From Elusimicrobiota bacterium (lineage in GTDB: Bacteria > Elusimicrobiota > Elusimicrobia > UBA1565), in contig JACRDU010000095.1 of the NCBI GenBank assembly GCA_016218495.1, positions 1 through 50,132 of the forward strand: a stretch of DNA of 50,132 bases. Direction: 5' to 3'. The notes under the pieces were generated by a model. That model was not told the origin of the DNA and made no database searches. It was given only the letters and a program-made list of their open reading frames with translations. This document shows, piece after piece, positions 32,521 through 39,896 of this stretch. A program made the position numbers and the translations under genes. Numbering within the stretch: the stretch's first letter is position 1; each line of letters begins with the position of its first letter.

Positions 32521-33000
32521 CTATTCGCAGATGTGGCAGACGCCCAGACCGTCGGCGGCCACGGGGCGGTCGCGCTCGGAGTTGACGATGCAGAGGAAGC
32601 CGAAGGGCTCCTTGGCGCCTTCCGGGCAGCGGAACTGGTGCGGGTCGGACGGCGACACATAGACCACGTCGCCGAAGCCCACCTTCCAGATGTAGCAGCC
32701 CGCCTGGGCCTCGCCGACGCCGCGCAGCGCGACGACCACATGCTCGTGCTGATGCTTCTCCAGCGTGCTGTGCCCGCCGGGCTGGATTTCGAAATAGCGC
32801 ACATGGAACTTCGTCGATTCGCCGCGCTTGCCGGCCAGTTCGCGGCGCTCGATGCCCTTGTAGCCCTCGGAATCCTGCTTATAGGGCTCGATGGGCACGT
32901 CCTTCCATGAGAAGCCCTCCAGGAAGCGGATGACCTTGCTGTGGTTCCCTTCGATGGGCGGCGGAGGCGGGGCCTTGCTCGAACGGATGGTACGGTCCAT
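32521..33000 (-). CDS. Single-domain cupin, metal-binding, unknown reaction
   Basis: A 159-residue cupin. Motif 1 is GGHSTLEKHQHEHVV, with candidate metal ligands His77, His83, His85 and His87. Motif 2 holds SPSDPHQF (His121). The C-terminus has an unusual pair of cysteines (GVCHIC, residues 155 and 158). It is the third gene of a minus-strand operon: the RuBisCO-like gene ends three bases upstream of its ATG. In Rhodospirillum rubrum a cupin acts after a RuBisCO-like isomerase in a methylthioadenosine-to-isoprenoid pathway, so a linked role is possible, but this cupin's substrate cannot be read from sequence. Confidence 0.82.
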   Translation of the reverse strand: MDRTIRSSKAPPPPPIEGNHSKVIRFLEGFSWKDVPIEPYKQDSEGYKGIERRELAGKRGESTKFHVRYFEIQPGGHSTLEKHQHEHVVVALRGVGEAQAGCYIWKVGFGDVVYVSPSDPHQFRCPEGAKEPFGFLCIVNSERDRPVAADGLGVCHICE

Positions 33001-33003
33001 GCC

Positions 33004-34119
33004 TCAGGATACCAATTCGTCTATCGCATCCAGGAAGGCCCGGGTGCCGTCATAGACGCTCTTCGAGTGCTCGAGCAGGCCTCCGCCCACCAGGAAGACC
33101 GAGTCCGCGCCGTAGTCCCGCGCCATATCCGGCAGGCGGGCGAAGGTCATGCCGCCGGCGGGCGCCGGGAAGGCCGGGGCCAGGGACCCCAAGGGGCCGC
33201 GCAGGCGCGCCGAGAGCTCGGCGCACTCGGCCCCGCTGAAGCCGAAGCGGCCCCCCGGGTTAGGGAAGATGGAAACGTCGCAGCCGGCCAGGCGGAACAA
33301 AGTCCCCAGGAGCAGGCCCGGCGTCATGCCGTGGGTGCGGTCGGAGAAGAAGGTCCCCGTGAAGGACGGGTGGGCCATGAGGACGATGCGGTGCTTCTTG
33401 GCCAGCAGGCGCACCGAGTCGAGCCCCAGCAGGAAAGGCGGGACGAGGATGCCCTCCGCCCCGGCGCCCAGCGCCGCCTCCACCCGGCCCTCGAGCTCGT
33501 CGGCCGGGCCGCAGAGGATGGGGCAATACAGGGTATGCCCGCCGGTCCTGGCGTTGGCCTCGGTGACGGCCGCCTGCACGCGGCGCACCCGCTCGGCGAA
33601 GCCGGCGAGGCCCTGGTCGCAGAGGTTCTGGTCGTCTTTGAGGAGGTCGCCGCCCGCCCGGGCGAAGTCCGAAGCCAGCCTCTCGAACTCCTCGGTGGAA
33701 GCCCCGTTGGGCTTGAGCGCCGTGGCCAGGAGCGGCCGGCGCGGCACCCGTAGCCTCCGGCGCAGGCCCGCTACGCCGAAGTTGGGTCCCTTGAAGCGGG
33801 AGAGGAAGGAGGCGGGCAGCTCCAGGCCCACGAGACGGATGCCGGTCTGGATGGAGACGTTCCCATAGACGAGGTTGAGCAGGCGCGGCAGCTCCCAGCC
33901 CGACAGGGCGGCGTCATAGGAGATGGCCACCTGATGGGGGCCGCCGTCCTTGGCCGGCACGGCATCGAGCACCTTGGCGACCACGCGAGCCTCGATGTCG
34001 GGGGTGATCAGGGACTCCGGGACCTCCACCGTCTGTTCGACGGCGACGGCCCGCGCCGCCTTGGCCAGTTCGGCGGCCGGGCAGGACAGGGCGTAGCGCG
34101 CGACGATTGAATCAGGCAT
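33004..34119 (-). CDS. RuBisCO-like protein (form IV)
   Basis: A 371-residue relative of the RuBisCO large subunit, about 100 residues shorter than true RuBisCO. Landmarks are ALKPNGAS (Lys136, equivalent to catalytic K175) and GGDLLKDDQN. In the latter Lys161-Asp162-Asp163 match the carbamylated K201 and D203, but the third ligand E204 is Gln164. MAHPSFTG has His250 but Pro in place of R295. The loop-6 lysine needed for carboxylation is not found. PAGGMTF and VGGGLLEHSK keep the phosphate-binding glycines. These changes rule out carboxylase activity by family rules and fit an enolase- or isomerase-type reaction on a sugar phosphate or related acid. The gene overlaps the symporter gene by 8 bp and precedes the cupin by 3 bp. 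Confidence 0.92.
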   Translation of the reverse strand: MPDSIVARYALSCPAAELAKAARAVAVEQTVEVPESLITPDIEARVVAKVLDAVPAKDGGPHQVAISYDAALSGWELPRLLNLVYGNVSIQTGIRLVGLELPASFLSRFKGPNFGVAGLRRRLRVPRRPLLATALKPNGASTEEFERLASDFARAGGDLLKDDQNLCDQGLAGFAERVRRVQAAVTEANARTGGHTLYCPILCGPADELEGRVEAALGAGAEGILVPPFLLGLDSVRLLAKKHRIVLMAHPSFTGTFFSDRTHGMTPGLLLGTLFRLAGCDVSIFPNPGGRFGFSGAECAELSARLRGPLGSLAPAFPAPAGGMTFARLPDMARDYGADSVFLVGGGLLEHSKSVYDGTRAFLDAIDELVS

Positions 34120-35329
34120 CCGCGCCCCCCTTGTCGGCGCGGTCGATGATGATGGACACCACCATGTCGCTGAGCACGTTCATCACCGAACGGCCCCGGG
34201 CGACCAGCCAGTCCACCGTCAGCAGCAGCGGCAGCAGCTCCACCGGCAGCCCGACGGTGGCCAGCACGATGGAAAGCGAGACGAAGCCAGCCTCCGGGAT
34301 GCCGGCGATGCCCATGGCGGCCACCATGCATGAGGCCGCCGCCATCAGCTGCTGGCCGAGGTCGAGGTGGATGCCGTGGGCCTGCGCCACGAAGAGCAGG
34401 GCCATCCCCTCGTAGAGGATGATGCCGTCGTTGTTGAGGTTCGTCCCGACGCAGGCCCCCAGGGCGGAGGCCTTGCGCGAGACGCCGAGGCGGTCCAGCG
34501 TCCGCAGCGTCAGCGGCAGCGTGGCCAGGCTGGAGTTCGTCCCGAACGCGTAGGCCAGGGTCTCGCGGGCCTCGCTCCAGAAGCGCCGCAGGGGGATGCG
34601 CGCGAAGAGGCCGACCCAGAGCTGGTAGGTGACGCAGGTGTGGATGGCGAAGCCGAGCAGGGCGACGCCGACGTAGGCCGCCAGGCCCTTGAGCGGGGAG
34701 AAGCCGTATTCGCCCACGGCCTTAGCCACTACGCCGAAGACCGCCAGCGGGACGAGCGCGACGATCCAGCCCAAGACGAACTCCAGGGCCGTGAGGAAGC
34801 CCGCCAGCATCTCGTTGAAGACGGCCAATCCCCGGGCCGCCTCGCCTTGCGCGGTGGCGTTCGCCGCGCGGAGCCCCGCTCCCAGGAACAGCGCCAGGAT
34901 GACGACGCCCAGGATGTTTTGGCTCAAGAAGGGCTCGACGATGCTGGTGGGGATCAGGTTCGCGCTCATGCGCGCGAAGCTCAGGGGCTCCTGGCGGGCC
35001 AGGGTGCCGGGCGCGGTCAGCCCCGCCATCTCGAGATGGGTCCCGGGGTGCAGGAGGTTGGAGAGGGCCAGGCCGATGGCCAGAGCCACGGAGGCGTTGA
35101 AGGCCGCCGCGGCCATCATGCGCGCGCCGTCCTTGCCCGACACCTCGGTCTTGACGATGGCCTGCACGATGGCCAGGAAAAGCAGCGGGGCCGCCGCCGT
35201 CTTGATGAGCTGGATGACCAGGGTGCCGAGGATGCCGAGCGGGGCGGCCCCGGGTCCCACGGCCGCGCCGACGGCCGCGCCGACGAGCATCGCCGCGGCG
35301 ATGGTCCAGGTCAGCGATAGCCGCTTCAC
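34112..35329 (-). CDS. Dicarboxylate/amino acid:cation symporter (DAACS, GltP-like)
   Basis: A 405-residue transporter of the glutamate/aspartate/C4-dicarboxylate:Na+ or H+ symporter family. Signatures are the serine-rich re-entrant loop TNSSLATLPL (264-273), the NMDG-like GTNLNNDG (295-302) and GIAGIPEAGFV in the last hairpin. About eight membrane helices are visible. It starts at GTG 35329, with TATAAT six bases upstream and no ribosome binding site. As the first gene of the operon with the RuBisCO-like protein and cupin, it may import the substrate that those enzymes use or a co-substrate. Confidence 0.93.
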   Translation of the reverse strand: MKRLSLTWTIAAAMLVGAAVGAAVGPGAAPLGILGTLVIQLIKTAAAPLLFLAIVQAIVKTEVSGKDGARMMAAAAFNASVALAIGLALSNLLHPGTHLEMAGLTAPGTLARQEPLSFARMSANLIPTSIVEPFLSQNILGVVILALFLGAGLRAANATAQGEAARGLAVFNEMLAGFLTALEFVLGWIVALVPLAVFGVVAKAVGEYGFSPLKGLAAYVGVALLGFAIHTCVTYQLWVGLFARIPLRRFWSEARETLAYAFGTNSSLATLPLTLRTLDRLGVSRKASALGACVGTNLNNDGIILYEGMALLFVAQAHGIHLDLGQQLMAAASCMVAAMGIAGIPEAGFVSLSIVLATVGLPVELLPLLLTVDWLVARGRSVMNVLSDMVVSIIIDRADKGGADA

Positions 35330-35335
35330 TCGTGG

Positions 35336-35364
35336 ATTATAGTGAAACGGCTTGACATTGTAAC
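35336..35364 (-). promoter_or_regulatory. Promoter of the symporter/RuBisCO-like/cupin operon, leaderless type
   Basis: TATAAT on the minus strand (35336-35341) ends six bases before the GTG. A 4/6 -35 (GTTACA, 35359-35364) is 17 bp upstream. It overlaps the divergent lipoprotein promoter. Confidence 0.6.
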
Positions 35365-35386: not shown

Positions 35387-36166
35387 ATGCCCCGGCGCAC
35401 CTCCCTCTTCTGGGCGGCCCTGGTCTTCACGGGCTGCGCTCCGAAGCAGCCTCCGCTGCCCAGCGTCATCCTCCCGGGCCTGGATAGGCGCGTGGAGGCC
35501 GTGCAGAACTCTACGGCGACCGCCTCCGCGCCGCCGACGCCGGCCTTGAGCCCGGTCCCGCTCTCCACGACCCAGCCGCGGCCGGACTGGGTGGACCTCC
35601 CGCCCCCTCAAGGCCCCCCCGCCCCGATCCCCGTGACCCTCGTCCCTACGCCCGAAGGGCGCTTTGCCGTGCTCTCGGAGCGCTTCTACTTCGAGCTCCC
35701 CAGGGGCTGGAAGCCGCCGGTCACAGCTCCCGGAGGGGCGACTCTCATCGACGGGGAGGGGCGGGCCGGGGCCACGGTCGCCTTCCATCAGGAGGGGAGC
35801 GCGGACTGGAGCCCGGCCGACGAGGTCCGGCGCCGGCTCAGGTCGCAGGGCTCGGTGGAGGACCCGCCGGACCTCGAGACCGTCACGCTCTCAGGACGCT
35901 TCGCCATCCGACGGCGCTGGACCACGCACCGATACAAGGGGAAGCTGCTCGGCACGAAGGAGGAGGTGCTCTACAGCGAGACCTTGCTGGTGCCCGACCC
36001 CGAAGGCATCTACCTGATCTCCTTTCGCGCGGCGAAGGCCGAGTTCAAGGCCAGGCGCGCCGGGTTCTCCGAACTGCTCAAGAGCCTGCGCTTCCCCGCG
36101 GCCCACGGCGCCCTCTGGCAGCCCGACGTCAAGAGCCGGCGCCTGGCGCTGCCCGCCGCGGACTAG
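35387..36166 (+). CDS. Lipoprotein of unknown function
   Basis: From ATG 35387 the 259-residue protein has a basic N-terminus, a hydrophobic stretch and a lipobox (SLFWAALVFTGC), so it should be lipidated at the Cys near residue 16. A Pro-rich linker (about 35-85) leads to a folded domain beginning about residue 95 (FAVLSERFYFELPRGWKPPV) with regular beta strands (GATVAFHQEG, RFAIRRRWTTHRYKGK, EGIYLISFRAAKAEFK). The domain resembles stress-response PsbP/DUF1795-like folds in strand order, but I cannot name a family. Its TAG stop is shared with the convergent potD stop (CTAG). Confidence 0.72.
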   Translation: MPRRTSLFWAALVFTGCAPKQPPLPSVILPGLDRRVEAVQNSTATASAPPTPALSPVPLSTTQPRPDWVDLPPPQGPPAPIPVTLVPTPEGRFAVLSERFYFELPRGWKPPVTAPGGATLIDGEGRAGATVAFHQEGSADWSPADEVRRRLRSQGSVEDPPDLETVTLSGRFAIRRRWTTHRYKGKLLGTKEEVLYSETLLVPDPEGIYLISFRAAKAEFKARRAGFSELLKSLRFPAAHGALWQPDVKSRRLALPAAD

Positions 36167-37194
36167 CCCGCCTTGAGCTCGGTCCAGAGCCGGTCGTAGA
36201 GCGCGGCGGCCTCGCCGAGGTCCTCGAGCCAGACGGCGCGCTTCATCATCGCCGCGTCCGGGACGATGGTCGGGTTCCCGCGCAGCTCCTCGGGCAGGCG
36301 CTTGGCGGCGTCCTTGATAGGGCTGCCGCCGCGGAGCTTGGCATGCAGCTTGGTGGCCACCTCGGGGGAGAGCAGGAAGTCGATCAGCGCCTTCGCCGCC
36401 TCGGGGTCGGCCGCTTTCTTTGGGACGCACAGGTTGTCCATCCAGATAAAGCCCCCCTCCTTGGGCAGGACGAAGCGCAGAGAGGGCTTTTCCGCCGCGG
36501 CCAGGTTGAGGTCGCTCGACCAGGCCTGCGCCACGACGACTTCTCCGGCGATGAGCAGCCCTTTCTGGTTCTCGCTCTGGTAGGCCTTCACCAGCGGCCT
36601 CTGCTCGGACAGGCGCTTCTGGGCGGCGGCCAAGTGCTTGGGGTCCTTGGAGTTCGCCGGAAGGCCCAGGGACTGCAGGGCCATGGCGAAGACCTCGCGC
36701 TGGTCGTTGAGCATGGCGATGCGGCCCTTCCAGCGCGGGTCCCAGAGGGCGGCCCAGGAATCCGGGGCGGGCTTCACGACATCGGAGTCGTAGGCGATGC
36801 CGGTCATCCCCCACATGTACGGCATGCTGAAGCGGTTGCCCTTGTCGAAGGGGAGGTCGAGGAAGCGCGGGTCGATCTGCCCGGCGTTGGGCACGGCGGA
36901 CTTCGGGATCTCGGCGAGCAGCCCCTGGCGGGCCATGATCTCGACCATGTAGTCGGAGGGGACGATGACGTCGTAGCCCCCCTGCCCGGCCATCAGCTTG
37001 GCCAGCAGTTCCTCGTTGGAGGCGAAGAAGTCCGTCACCACCTTGATGCCGGTGAGCTTCTCGAACTCCGCGAAGACGGCCGGGTCGTCGTAGGAGTCCC
37101 AGGAGTAGAAGTGGACCGTCCGGCCGGCCGGCTTCCCGCAGCCGCCCAAGAGCGCCAACGCCAGCACGGCGGCCCGCCTAATGGATCGCAGCAT
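36163..37194 (-). CDS. potD: Spermidine/putrescine ABC transporter, substrate-binding lipoprotein
   Basis: A 343-residue periplasmic binding protein (type II fold). The signal ends in the lipobox LALLGGC (Cys near 19), and the mature part starts TVHFYSWDSYDDPAVFAEFEK, the polyamine-binding family's typical beginning. NEELLAKLMAGQGGYDVIVPSDYMV and PYMWGMTGIAYDS carry substrate-site residues. It is the last gene of the fixCX-pot operon and overlaps potC by 17 bp. Polyamine is the expected ligand, though related proteins bind other amines. Confidence 0.92.
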   Translation of the reverse strand: MLRSIRRAAVLALALLGGCGKPAGRTVHFYSWDSYDDPAVFAEFEKLTGIKVVTDFFASNEELLAKLMAGQGGYDVIVPSDYMVEIMARQGLLAEIPKSAVPNAGQIDPRFLDLPFDKGNRFSMPYMWGMTGIAYDSDVVKPAPDSWAALWDPRWKGRIAMLNDQREVFAMALQSLGLPANSKDPKHLAAAQKRLSEQRPLVKAYQSENQKGLLIAGEVVVAQAWSSDLNLAAAEKPSLRFVLPKEGGFIWMDNLCVPKKAADPEAAKALIDFLLSPEVATKLHAKLRGGSPIKDAAKRLPEELRGNPTIVPDAAMMKRAVWLEDLGEAAALYDRLWTELKAG

Positions 37195-37960
37195 CCTCTC
37201 CTCCCTGCAGCAGCCAGGCCGCCACGACCGCCGCCAGCGACGCCAGGAACAGCAGCGTCGAGAGCGCGTTGACCTCCGGGCTTATGGCGTACTTGAGCAT
37301 CGAATAGATCTGGATGGGCAGGGTGGTCGTGCTCGGCCCGGCCACGAAGAAGCTTATCAGGAAGCAGTCGACGGAGATGATGAACGCCATCAGGCCCCCG
37401 GCGGCGACGGCCGGCGCGAGCAGCGGCAGGGTTATCCTGAGCAGCGCCTGCCAGCGCGTCGCCCCCAGGTCCACCGCCGCGTCCTCGAGCCTGGGGTCGA
37501 GCTTCTCCAGGCGCGCCTTGACGATGAGCCAGACGATGGGCAGGTTGAGCGTCGTATGGGCTATGACCAACGCCCACAGCCCCAAGTCGACCTTGAGCGT
37601 CCCGAAGAAGAGCAGGAAGCCTACGGCGAGCATGAGCTCGGGGATGATGAGCGGGATGTAGAAGAACGCTTCCTTCGCGCGCTCCGCCGCCGTCGGCTGC
37701 CGTCCGCGCGCCACGGCGGCGAAGGTCCCCATCGCCGTGGAGAGCGCCGCCGAGAGCGCGGCGACGACCAGCGAGTTCCAGGTCGAGGACAGGATCTTGT
37801 GGTCGGAGAAGAGCTTCGCGTACCAGTCCCAGGTGAAGCCCCCCCAACTCGCCCCGTACTTCGAGGAATTGAACGAGAAGACGACCAGGACCAGGATGGG
37901 GAGATAGAGGAAGGCCAGCGTCGTCCAGCCCGCCGCCGCCAGGAGCGAAATCCGCCTCAC
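37178..37960 (-). CDS. potC: Polyamine ABC transporter permease PotC
   Basis: A 260-residue inner-membrane permease with six helices and the EAA motif AAVDLGATRWQALLRITLPLLAP (near 165-187) that contacts the ATPase. The GTG start at 37960 (VRRISLLAAAGWTTLAFLYLP) overlaps the potB stop as GTGA, the same junction type as in the rest of the operon. The longer upstream frame is shadow. Confidence 0.92.
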   Translation of the reverse strand: MRRISLLAAAGWTTLAFLYLPILVLVVFSFNSSKYGASWGGFTWDWYAKLFSDHKILSSTWNSLVVAALSAALSTAMGTFAAVARGRQPTAAERAKEAFFYIPLIIPELMLAVGFLLFFGTLKVDLGLWALVIAHTTLNLPIVWLIVKARLEKLDPRLEDAAVDLGATRWQALLRITLPLLAPAVAAGGLMAFIISVDCFLISFFVAGPSTTTLPIQIYSMLKYAISPEVNALSTLLFLASLAAVVAAWLLQGGEDAAIH

Positions 37961-38781
37961 CGGACCGCCTCGGCACGCCGTGCCAGCGCCAGCCCGGCCC
38001 CCACGACGGCCATCAGGCCGAAGGAGAGGGCGGAGCCGAAGGGCCAGTCCCGCAGCACGAGGTATTGCTGGTGGATGAGGTTCCCGGCCATGACGATCTT
38101 CGACCCGCCCAGGATGTCCGGGGTGACGAAGTCCCCCAATGTCCAGACGAAGACCAAGATGGAGCCGGCCGCCAGCCCGGGGCGGGAGAGCGGCAGGGTG
38201 ACGCGCCAGAAGGCCTGGGCCGGGGTGGCGTAGAGGTCGCGCGCCGCATCGACCAAGGCCCAGTCGATCTTCTCGAGGGTGGCGTAGAGCGGCAGGATCA
38301 TGAACGGGAGGTGCTCGTAGACGAGGCCCAGGACCACGGCCCCCGGGGTGAAGAGGACTTCGACGGGCTCCTGCGCGAGCCCGGCGGCCTGCAGCATGGC
38401 GTTCAGAGGACCCGCGCGGCCGAGGATGAACATCCACGCGTAGAGGCGGACCAGGACGTTGGTCCAGAACGGGATGAGAACGAGCAGGACGAGCAGGCCC
38501 TGCTTCTTGCGCGGCGCCCGCGCGATCCAATAGGCGATCGGATAGGCGAGCACGGCGCACAGGATGGTATTGAGGCCGGCGAGGGCCAGGGAGCGCGCGA
38601 AGACGGAGCAGTAGAGCGGATCTAAGAGGCGCCGATAGGCATCCAGGCCCAGCCCCCACTCCAGGGTCCCGTAGGGCCCGCGCGAGGCCACGCTCACCGC
38701 GGCGATGAGGGCGAGCGGGACCCCCAGGAAGACGGCCTGCCAGCCCAGCGCCGGCCAATCGAGGCGCGCGGGGCGGCTCAC
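37957..38781 (-). CDS. potB: Polyamine ABC transporter permease PotB
   Basis: A 274-residue permease with six helices. The conserved block IPFWTNVLVRLYAWMFILG is typical of PotB, and the EAA motif is AARDLYATPAQAFWRVTLPLSRPG. GDFVTPDILGG and GNLIHQQYL are also PotB hallmarks. GTG at 38781 is chosen because it overlaps the potA stop as GTGA; an ATG at 38814 would extend the protein by 11 residues into potA. Confidence 0.92.
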   Translation of the reverse strand: MSRPARLDWPALGWQAVFLGVPLALIAAVSVASRGPYGTLEWGLGLDAYRRLLDPLYCSVFARSLALAGLNTILCAVLAYPIAYWIARAPRKKQGLLVLLVLIPFWTNVLVRLYAWMFILGRAGPLNAMLQAAGLAQEPVEVLFTPGAVVLGLVYEHLPFMILPLYATLEKIDWALVDAARDLYATPAQAFWRVTLPLSRPGLAAGSILVFVWTLGDFVTPDILGGSKIVMAGNLIHQQYLVLRDWPFGSALSFGLMAVVGAGLALARRAEAVR

Positions 38782-39896
38782 TCCCGGACCGGCCTGGCGT
38801 CTTCGGCGCGCCATTGGACGAGGACCCGCTCGCCCGGCCTGCGCACCGGCCTGAGCGGGGAGCTGATCTCATGGGCGTCCAGCTCCCTCCCGGAGGCCGT
38901 CATGACCCGGTAGCGCACCTCGCCGCCCAGGAAGACCGTGCTCTGGACTATCCCGGGGACCCGGTTCTCCAGCTCCGCCTCGGACCCGTCGGAGGCGAGG
39001 TGGATGCGCTCGGGCCGCAGGCACAGCGTGACGGAATCCCCGGCCCTGGCCCCGTTCATTAGGAACGCCGACACGCGGCCCAGGCCGCCGACCTCGAGCA
39101 GCGCCCGCCGGGTGCCTCCCTCCGCCTCCATCAAGAGGGGTTCCACCTCGACGACCGCCCCCGGCAGGAGGTTCGACACGCCGACGAAATCAGCGACGAA
39201 GCGCGTGGCCGGGGCCTCATAGACCTCTTGGGGCGTGCCGACCTGCTCGATGCGGCCGGCGCGCATCACCGCGATGCGGTCGGCCAGGGCGAGGGCCTCC
39301 TCCTGGTCGTGGGTGACGAAGACGAAGCTGATGCCGACCTTGGCCTGCAGGGCCTTGAGCTCGACGCGCATGTCCTGGCGCAGCCTCTCGTCGAGGGCCG
39401 CCAGAGGCTCGTCGAGGAGGAGGACCTCGGGACGGTTGACCAGCGCGCGCGCCAGGGCGACGCGCTGCTGCTGGCCGCCCGAGAGCTGGTGGGGATAGCG
39501 TCCCCCGAGGGATTCGAGCCGCACGGTCCTGAGGCCCTCGGCCGCCCGGTCCACGACCTCGTCTTGAGGAAGGCGCTTCATGCGCAGGCCGAAGGCCACG
39601 TTGTCGGCCACCGTCATGTGCGGGAACAGCGCGTAATGCTGGAAGACCATGTTGACGGGGCGTTCGTTGGGCGGCACGCGGGCCACGTCCTTGCCCTCGA
39701 CCAGGACCCGGCCGGAATCCGGGAACTCGAAGCCGGCGATCATGCGCAGCAGGGTGGTCTTGCCGCAGCCCGAGGGGCCCAGCAGGGCGAAGAACTCGCC
39801 GTCGCCGATGGTCAGGTCGACGCCGTCGACGGCGACGGCCGACCCGAAGCGCTTGCGCACTCCCTTGAGCTCTATCGAGGGGACGGCGGCGGACAC
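38778..39896 (-). CDS. potA: Polyamine ABC transporter ATPase PotA
   Basis: A 372-residue ATPase with Walker A GPSGCGKTT (near 39-47), Q-loop, signature LSGGQQQRVALARAL, Walker B VLLLDEPLAALD and the switch His in VTHDQEEAL. The C-terminal TOBE regulatory domain (about 285-370) contains GIVQSTVFLGGEVRYRV. The GTG start follows the fixX stop by one base. This makes the uptake system part of the same transcript as fixC/fixX. Confidence 0.95.
   Translation of the reverse strand: MSAAVPSIELKGVRKRFGSAVAVDGVDLTIGDGEFFALLGPSGCGKTTLLRMIAGFEFPDSGRVLVEGKDVARVPPNERPVNMVFQHYALFPHMTVADNVAFGLRMKRLPQDEVVDRAAEGLRTVRLESLGGRYPHQLSGGQQQRVALARALVNRPEVLLLDEPLAALDERLRQDMRVELKALQAKVGISFVFVTHDQEEALALADRIAVMRAGRIEQVGTPQEVYEAPATRFVADFVGVSNLLPGAVVEVEPLLMEAEGGTRRALLEVGGLGRVSAFLMNGARAGDSVTLCLRPERIHLASDGSEAELENRVPGIVQSTVFLGGEVRYRVMTASGRELDAHEISSPLRPVRRPGERVLVQWRAEDARPVRE

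Follow-up and report, generated by a model that had tools for sequence, protein, structure and literature searches.

The window analysed here, 50,132 nt in length, is contig C57 of a 4.15-Mb, 95% complete Elusimicrobiota metagenome-assembled genome (G000). End to end on its minus strand lie genes for an SDF/DAACS-family symporter, a RuBisCO-like protein (RLP), and a cupin. The original prediction was a module for the uptake and conversion of some acid. We consider it very probable that the cluster is an Elusimicrobiota version of the known oxygen-independent 5'-methylthioadenosine (MTA)-isoprenoid shunt, a reading based on gene identities, conserved catalytic residues, fold matches, phyletic linkage, fusions in relatives, and the presence of mtnP, mtnA, and dxs. 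What is new here is the variant of this known pathway, with a symporter gene in front and a two-cysteine tail on the cupin. With this assignment, an oxygen-independent methionine-salvage/isoprenoid shunt that has been verified in two purple bacteria would also be represented in an uncultured phylum.

Arrangement and junctions of the three genes

Based on the ORF list and profile searches, the symporter gene (34112..35329, minus strand; GTG start, 405 aa; PF00375, 282 bits) is followed by the RLP gene (33004..34119, minus strand; ATG start, 371 aa; RuBisCO_large PF00016, 81 bits) and then by the cupin gene (32521..33000, minus strand; 159 aa; Cupin_2 PF07883, 35 bits). Their third-codon-position GC contents of 0.96, 0.92, and 0.89, respectively, are typical of real genes here. 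The symporter stop and the RLP start overlap by 8 nt, which suggests translational coupling, and a single codon separates the RLP stop from the cupin, the junction (33001..33006, minus strand) reading TGA and GGC before an in-frame cupin ATG. A promoter-like site, GTTACA-17-TATAAT (35336..35364, minus strand), precedes the symporter; it is a consensus match only, the one sigma70-like site found in the region against 0.1 expected by chance, and the scan of the region found none between the three genes. Because its -10 box ends 6 nt upstream of the symporter GTG, the predicted transcript is almost leaderless. The symporter is probably cotranscribed with the RLP and cupin genes in this genome. 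The anatomy originally described, with three crowded genes of these families, one promoter, and a C-terminal cysteine pair on the cupin, holds in every part; only the minus-strand orientation of all three genes had gone unmentioned.

The order symporter-RLP-cupin is found in G000 and G001, and in G002 an opposite-strand Omp85 gene splits off the symporter. Homologues elsewhere have RLP and cupin joined through a linker at the junction position, and programmed stop-codon readthrough from the RLP into the cupin was considered, given the shared frame and the single intervening codon. We set this possibility aside: the junction has TGA in G000 and TAA in G002 (TAA CCT ATG), and the gap in G001 is longer and out of frame. 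With stop codons and gaps differing among the three genomes, translational coupling or past fission is the simpler explanation. A potABCD-like polyamine ABC transporter operon (window positions 36163-39896) adjoins the unit and is also present in G001; MTA is one of the products of polyamine synthesis.

The RuBisCO-like protein and cupin as a shunt pair

The RLP has as its nearest PDB entry by sequence 3QFW, an RLP of Rhodopseudomonas palustris (E 1.7e-67), which is also the top fold match (TM 0.90 and 0.95) of its AlphaFold model (pLDDT 93.6). By elimination, 3QFW should be R. palustris RLP1, since 2QYG is rlp2. Work with the purified enzyme and with mutants identified RLP1 as the isomerase that converts 5-methylthioribulose-1-phosphate to 1-methylthioxylulose-5-phosphate (PMC5893883). 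A tree built from 89 RLPs places the window protein in a 47-member clade (SH-aLRT 99) that includes every RLP-cupin fusion found and that stands apart from the 3QFW subclade, within the same larger group. Among characterised proteins, the nearest relative of the window RLP is a DeepYkr RLP, neither MtnW nor a Photo RLP. Residues K136, K161, D162, D163, H250, and R291, which correspond to catalytic residues of RuBisCO and include the catalytic Lys and the Lys-Asp-Asp motif with the carbamylated Lys, are invariant in 36/36 sequences and common to 3QFW, and the third metal-ligand position, after KDD, is Gln in the window RLP, His in 3QFW, Glu in RuBisCO, and His or Gln in cupin-linked relatives. 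The protein is a probable 5-methylthioribulose-1-phosphate 1,3-isomerase. RLPs of 28% identity in G004 and G056 are of a different kind and are left out of all counts.

A role in classical methionine salvage, as the 2,3-diketo-5-methylthiopentyl-1-phosphate (DK-MTP-1P) enolase MtnW, is brought to mind by the best NCBIfam matches, NF007095 (PRK09549.1) and TIGR03332, and by the presence of mtnA and mtnP in the genome. However, the scores of 220 and 169 bits are far under the cut-offs of 409 and 513.6, the MtnW structures lie outside the RLP clade, and no MtnD/ARD was found in the eight genomes searched, so that the classical oxygen-dependent pathway seems incomplete. Scores, tree, and missing MtnD together lead us to reject the MtnW role as extremely improbable.

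Fold searches with the cupin rank 3JZV (Rru_A2000, E 6e-13) first, followed by 3KGZ (R. palustris) and 3IBM (Halorhodospira halophila), and the sequence ranking of PDB entries places 3IBM first. Over 47 sequences, 20 cupin residues are invariant, among them the three histidines and the glutamate of the metal motif, the histidine of the second motif, and a cysteine (His83, His85, His87, His121, Glu81, and Cys137). All of these family-invariant residues are present in Rru_A2000, to which the window protein is 41% identical; it is thus a member of the Rru_A2000 family with metal-binding histidines and a conserved cysteine. Rru_A2000 is the methylsulfurylase of the MTA-isoprenoid shunt, and H. halophila is listed among the organisms with this gene pair (PMC4958253). 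Metabolite analysis of mutants showed that the R. palustris cupin adjoining RLP1 acts as a methylsulfurylase as well (PMC5893883). The window cupin is accordingly placed as a probable 1-methylthioxylulose-5-phosphate methylsulfurylase. The likeness to the Rhodospirillum rubrum pair of a form IV RLP and a cupin, first proposed from the window alone, is now more strongly supported, by both sequence and fold matches.

The linkage between RLP and cupin is also seen across genomes. Of the 57 related genomes compared, both genes are present in 16 and absent from 33, with five containing only the RLP and three only the cupin (Fisher p 2e-7, kinship ignored); several of these eight mismatches are incomplete genomes. 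The two genes are not adjacent in genus g10, where a TauE/SafE gene and infC-rplT-pheST are in the vicinity of the RLP and the cupin, where examined, comes directly after atpC, so co-occurrence in this genus is not a by-product of adjacency. The TauE/SafE-family gene either immediately precedes the g10 RLP gene or is not far from it, mostly within the conserved infC-rplT-pheST context (L031, L035, L036, L039, L040, L044). Beyond these genomes, 32 of 80 RLP loci from many phyla have a cupin fused (21 loci) or adjacent (11 loci). The fusions (L090, L091, L093-L097, L099, L101, L104, L105, L108, L110, L112-L114, L116, L121, L146, L147, L152) comprise 21 ORFs, 19 of them complete (515-573 aa) and two cut at a contig start (L114, L121); they span about ten phyla, and one belongs to another Elusimicrobiota bacterium (L112:2690-4270, 526 aa). 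Such a wide spread of fusions is evidence that the two proteins work together. We found no description of the fusion in the titles and abstract beginnings of our literature search results, and as far as that material goes it looks new. Parsimony gives fused as the ancestral state at the base of the window RLP clade, on a quick tree with several weak nodes, and the separate genes of the window may therefore descend from a fusion that later split.

A related clade, in which the cupin is missing, combines the RLP with mtnA (L111, L117, L120, L136, L149, L158, L159, L161-L163). In two of these loci (L120, L136), the cluster extends to mtnK (TIGR01767, 492-499 bits) and to two genes resembling a split transketolase, and genes for a sugar-type ABC transporter are close by. 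These mtnK-mtnA-RLP clusters are a better candidate for uptake plus conversion, perhaps of methylthioribose or deoxyribose.

The other genes needed for the shunt are found elsewhere in the window genome: mtnA on C69 (412 bits) and mtnP on C93 (319 bits), both above their equivalog cut-offs, and dxs on C87. It had been observed that neither mtnA nor mtnP is in the window, which is correct for this stretch but misleading for the genome, and the proposal of an acid module had rested on that absence. Almost every genome of the order carries both genes, which shows that the shunt substrate can be made but, by the same token, does not discriminate between readings. MetY-type O-acetylhomoserine sulfhydrylase family members are present, none of them over the equivalog cut-off, which leaves the reuse of methanethiol uncertain.

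We infer the following reactions and their direction. MtnP would convert 5'-methylthioadenosine to 5-methylthioribose-1-phosphate, which MtnA would isomerize to 5-methylthioribulose-1-phosphate and the RLP in turn to 1-methylthioxylulose-5-phosphate. The metal-dependent cupin would then remove the methylthio group reductively, giving 1-deoxyxylulose-5-phosphate (DXP) and methanethiol or its thiol adduct, and DXP would enter the MEP pathway beside DXS. The contribution of the symporter is uncertain, and it may be a mere passenger. We counted against this scheme that the RLP falls in a different subclade from the verified R. palustris enzyme and has Gln after KDD, that the RLP and cupin of g10 are not adjacent, and that the symporter is foreign to the known pathway, as the original prediction had also held.

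The cysteine tail of the cupin

The cupin ends in the tail DGLGVCHICE (32524..32553, minus strand), whose CxxC motif is formed by Cys155 and Cys158. All g1 and g10 Elusimicrobiota cupins examined have this tail in the form DGLG[VA]C[HR]IC[EG], none of the other cupin relatives examined has it, and the feature looks new. The AlphaFold model places it with low confidence (pLDDT about 61). For the characterised methylsulfurylase, the reductant is glutathione (PMC5893883), and a built-in dithiol serving as the reductant in these cupins is therefore a plausible idea. A bolder version, in which the CxxC reduces 1-methylthioxylulose-5-phosphate without glutathione and the symporter moves a pathway-linked sulfur-containing or organic acid, so that the shunt is self-contained and glutathione independent, appears rather unlikely to us as a whole. 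The tail makes it possible to test what reduces the substrate where the thiol is not glutathione.

Between g1 and g10, the cupins are 75-82% identical, whereas identity is 49-59% for the RLP, symporter, mtnA, and mtnP. We considered whether the cupin had recently been transferred horizontally between the two genera; this was not supported, as divergence at its fourfold-degenerate sites is similar to that in the other genes. The conservation reflects strong constraint. The unusually conserved g10 gene with the CxxC tail lies directly behind atpC, where the ATP synthase operon ends (L232, L235, L236).

The symporter and its place in the cluster

The symporter is a full-length SDF protein that scores below every NCBIfam cut-off, reaching 166 of 513 bits for DctA and 120 of 638 bits for GltP. 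All 11 aligned members of its subfamily, from g1, g8, and g10, share the motifs NSSLATLP in HP1, GTNLNNDGIILYE in TM7, PEAG in HP2, and TVDW..AR.RS in TM8. Three changes are absent from the other SDF proteins examined, namely, NNDGI in place of NMDGT or its equivalents in TM7, P-E in place of P-G in HP2, and Ala in place of Asp in TM8; the TM8 Arg is retained. In GltPh, the TM8 Asp binds the amino group and the TM8 Arg binds the side-chain carboxylate. Loss of the former suggests a substrate without an amino group, probably a small anion lacking an alpha-amino group, and retention of the latter means that a carboxylate is possible. The low scores and the altered TM7, HP2, and TM8 motifs speak against the DctA C4-dicarboxylate and GltP glutamate/aspartate roles, and the subfamily is a substrate orphan within a well-characterised family of transporters. 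A second SDF gene in the genome (G000:C97:10163-11396) was matched as two adjoining pieces, possibly reflecting a frameshift.

Orthologues of the symporter (56-74% identical) occur in 13 genomes of g1, g8, and g10, including the window genome, and the gene is a lineage-specific extra. It lies upstream of the RLP and cupin genes in genus g1 only and is unlinked in g8 and g10, and none of the 80 RLP loci of other genomes has it. Conservation of all three genes across genomes had been put forward as a sign of a functional unit; as a linked set, they are confined to g1, with an interruption in G002. In g10, the unlinked gene is located a few genes from ispG (L228, L229, L230; the identity of ispG is confirmed in L229), which belongs to the isoprenoid pathway supplied by the shunt.

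These distributions bear on whether the symporter imports a carboxylic or sugar acid for conversion by the RLP and cupin, with no involvement of MTA. The tight arrangement in G000 and G001 fits such a module, and transporters do stand beside related RLPs, with TauE/SafE in g10 and the sugar ABC transporter in the mtnK-mtnA-RLP clusters. At the genus level, RLP, cupin, and the symporter subfamily are found in the same three of 20 genera (g1, g8, and g10), counting a divergent, 49%-identical g8 cupin; a random three-genus match has a chance of 1 in 1140, a figure that rests on three genera only, and we regard the agreement as suggestive. However, the genome does carry mtnA and mtnP, the cupin is a member of the methylsulfurylase family, the fused or adjacent loci connect RLP with cupin and never with the symporter, and an imported carboxylate is not the phosphorylated substrate that an RLP would need, the unit containing no kinase. 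We consider the acid module improbable.

Given a shunt role for the RLP and cupin, the symporter itself could be an unrelated passenger that merely shares a promoter in g1. The intervening Omp85 gene of G002, the solitary symporter genes of g8 and g10, and the absence of the symporter from 11 of 21 RLP-bearing genomes all point this way. Against this stand the 8-nt overlap, the order kept in G001, the co-occurrence by genus, and the situation in sister genus g2, which is without the RLP and cupin and in which mtnA shares 4 nt at its 3' end with the gene of another SDF symporter, about 29% identical (L221:4008-6391, L222:3249-5605). On balance, we see a passenger as about as likely as a real contribution to the pathway.

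The closest known system is the shunt of R. rubrum (Rru_A1998, Rru_A2000) and R. palustris (RPA2169, RPA2170), which has the same families of DeepYkr-related RLP and cupin, with mtnP and mtnA likewise elsewhere in the genome and the MEP entry enzyme present. The window RLP differs in belonging to another subclade, with GDxxKDD[QH]N rather than VDxIKDDHG, and the locus differs in the C-terminal CxxC tail of the cupin and in the symporter gene upstream of the pair. MtnW has the RuBisCO fold and a methionine-salvage context in common with the window RLP; it nevertheless lies outside the clade of the window protein, which scores below the MtnW cut-off in a genome without a detected MtnD. Compared with the DAACS/SDF transporters GltTk, GltPh, and DctA, the window symporter is of the same fold family over its full length and keeps the Na-site Asp residues of TM7/TM8 and the carboxylate-binding Arg of TM8, but it has NNDGI for NMDGT, PEAG for PGAG, and Ala for the amino-binding Asp of TM8.
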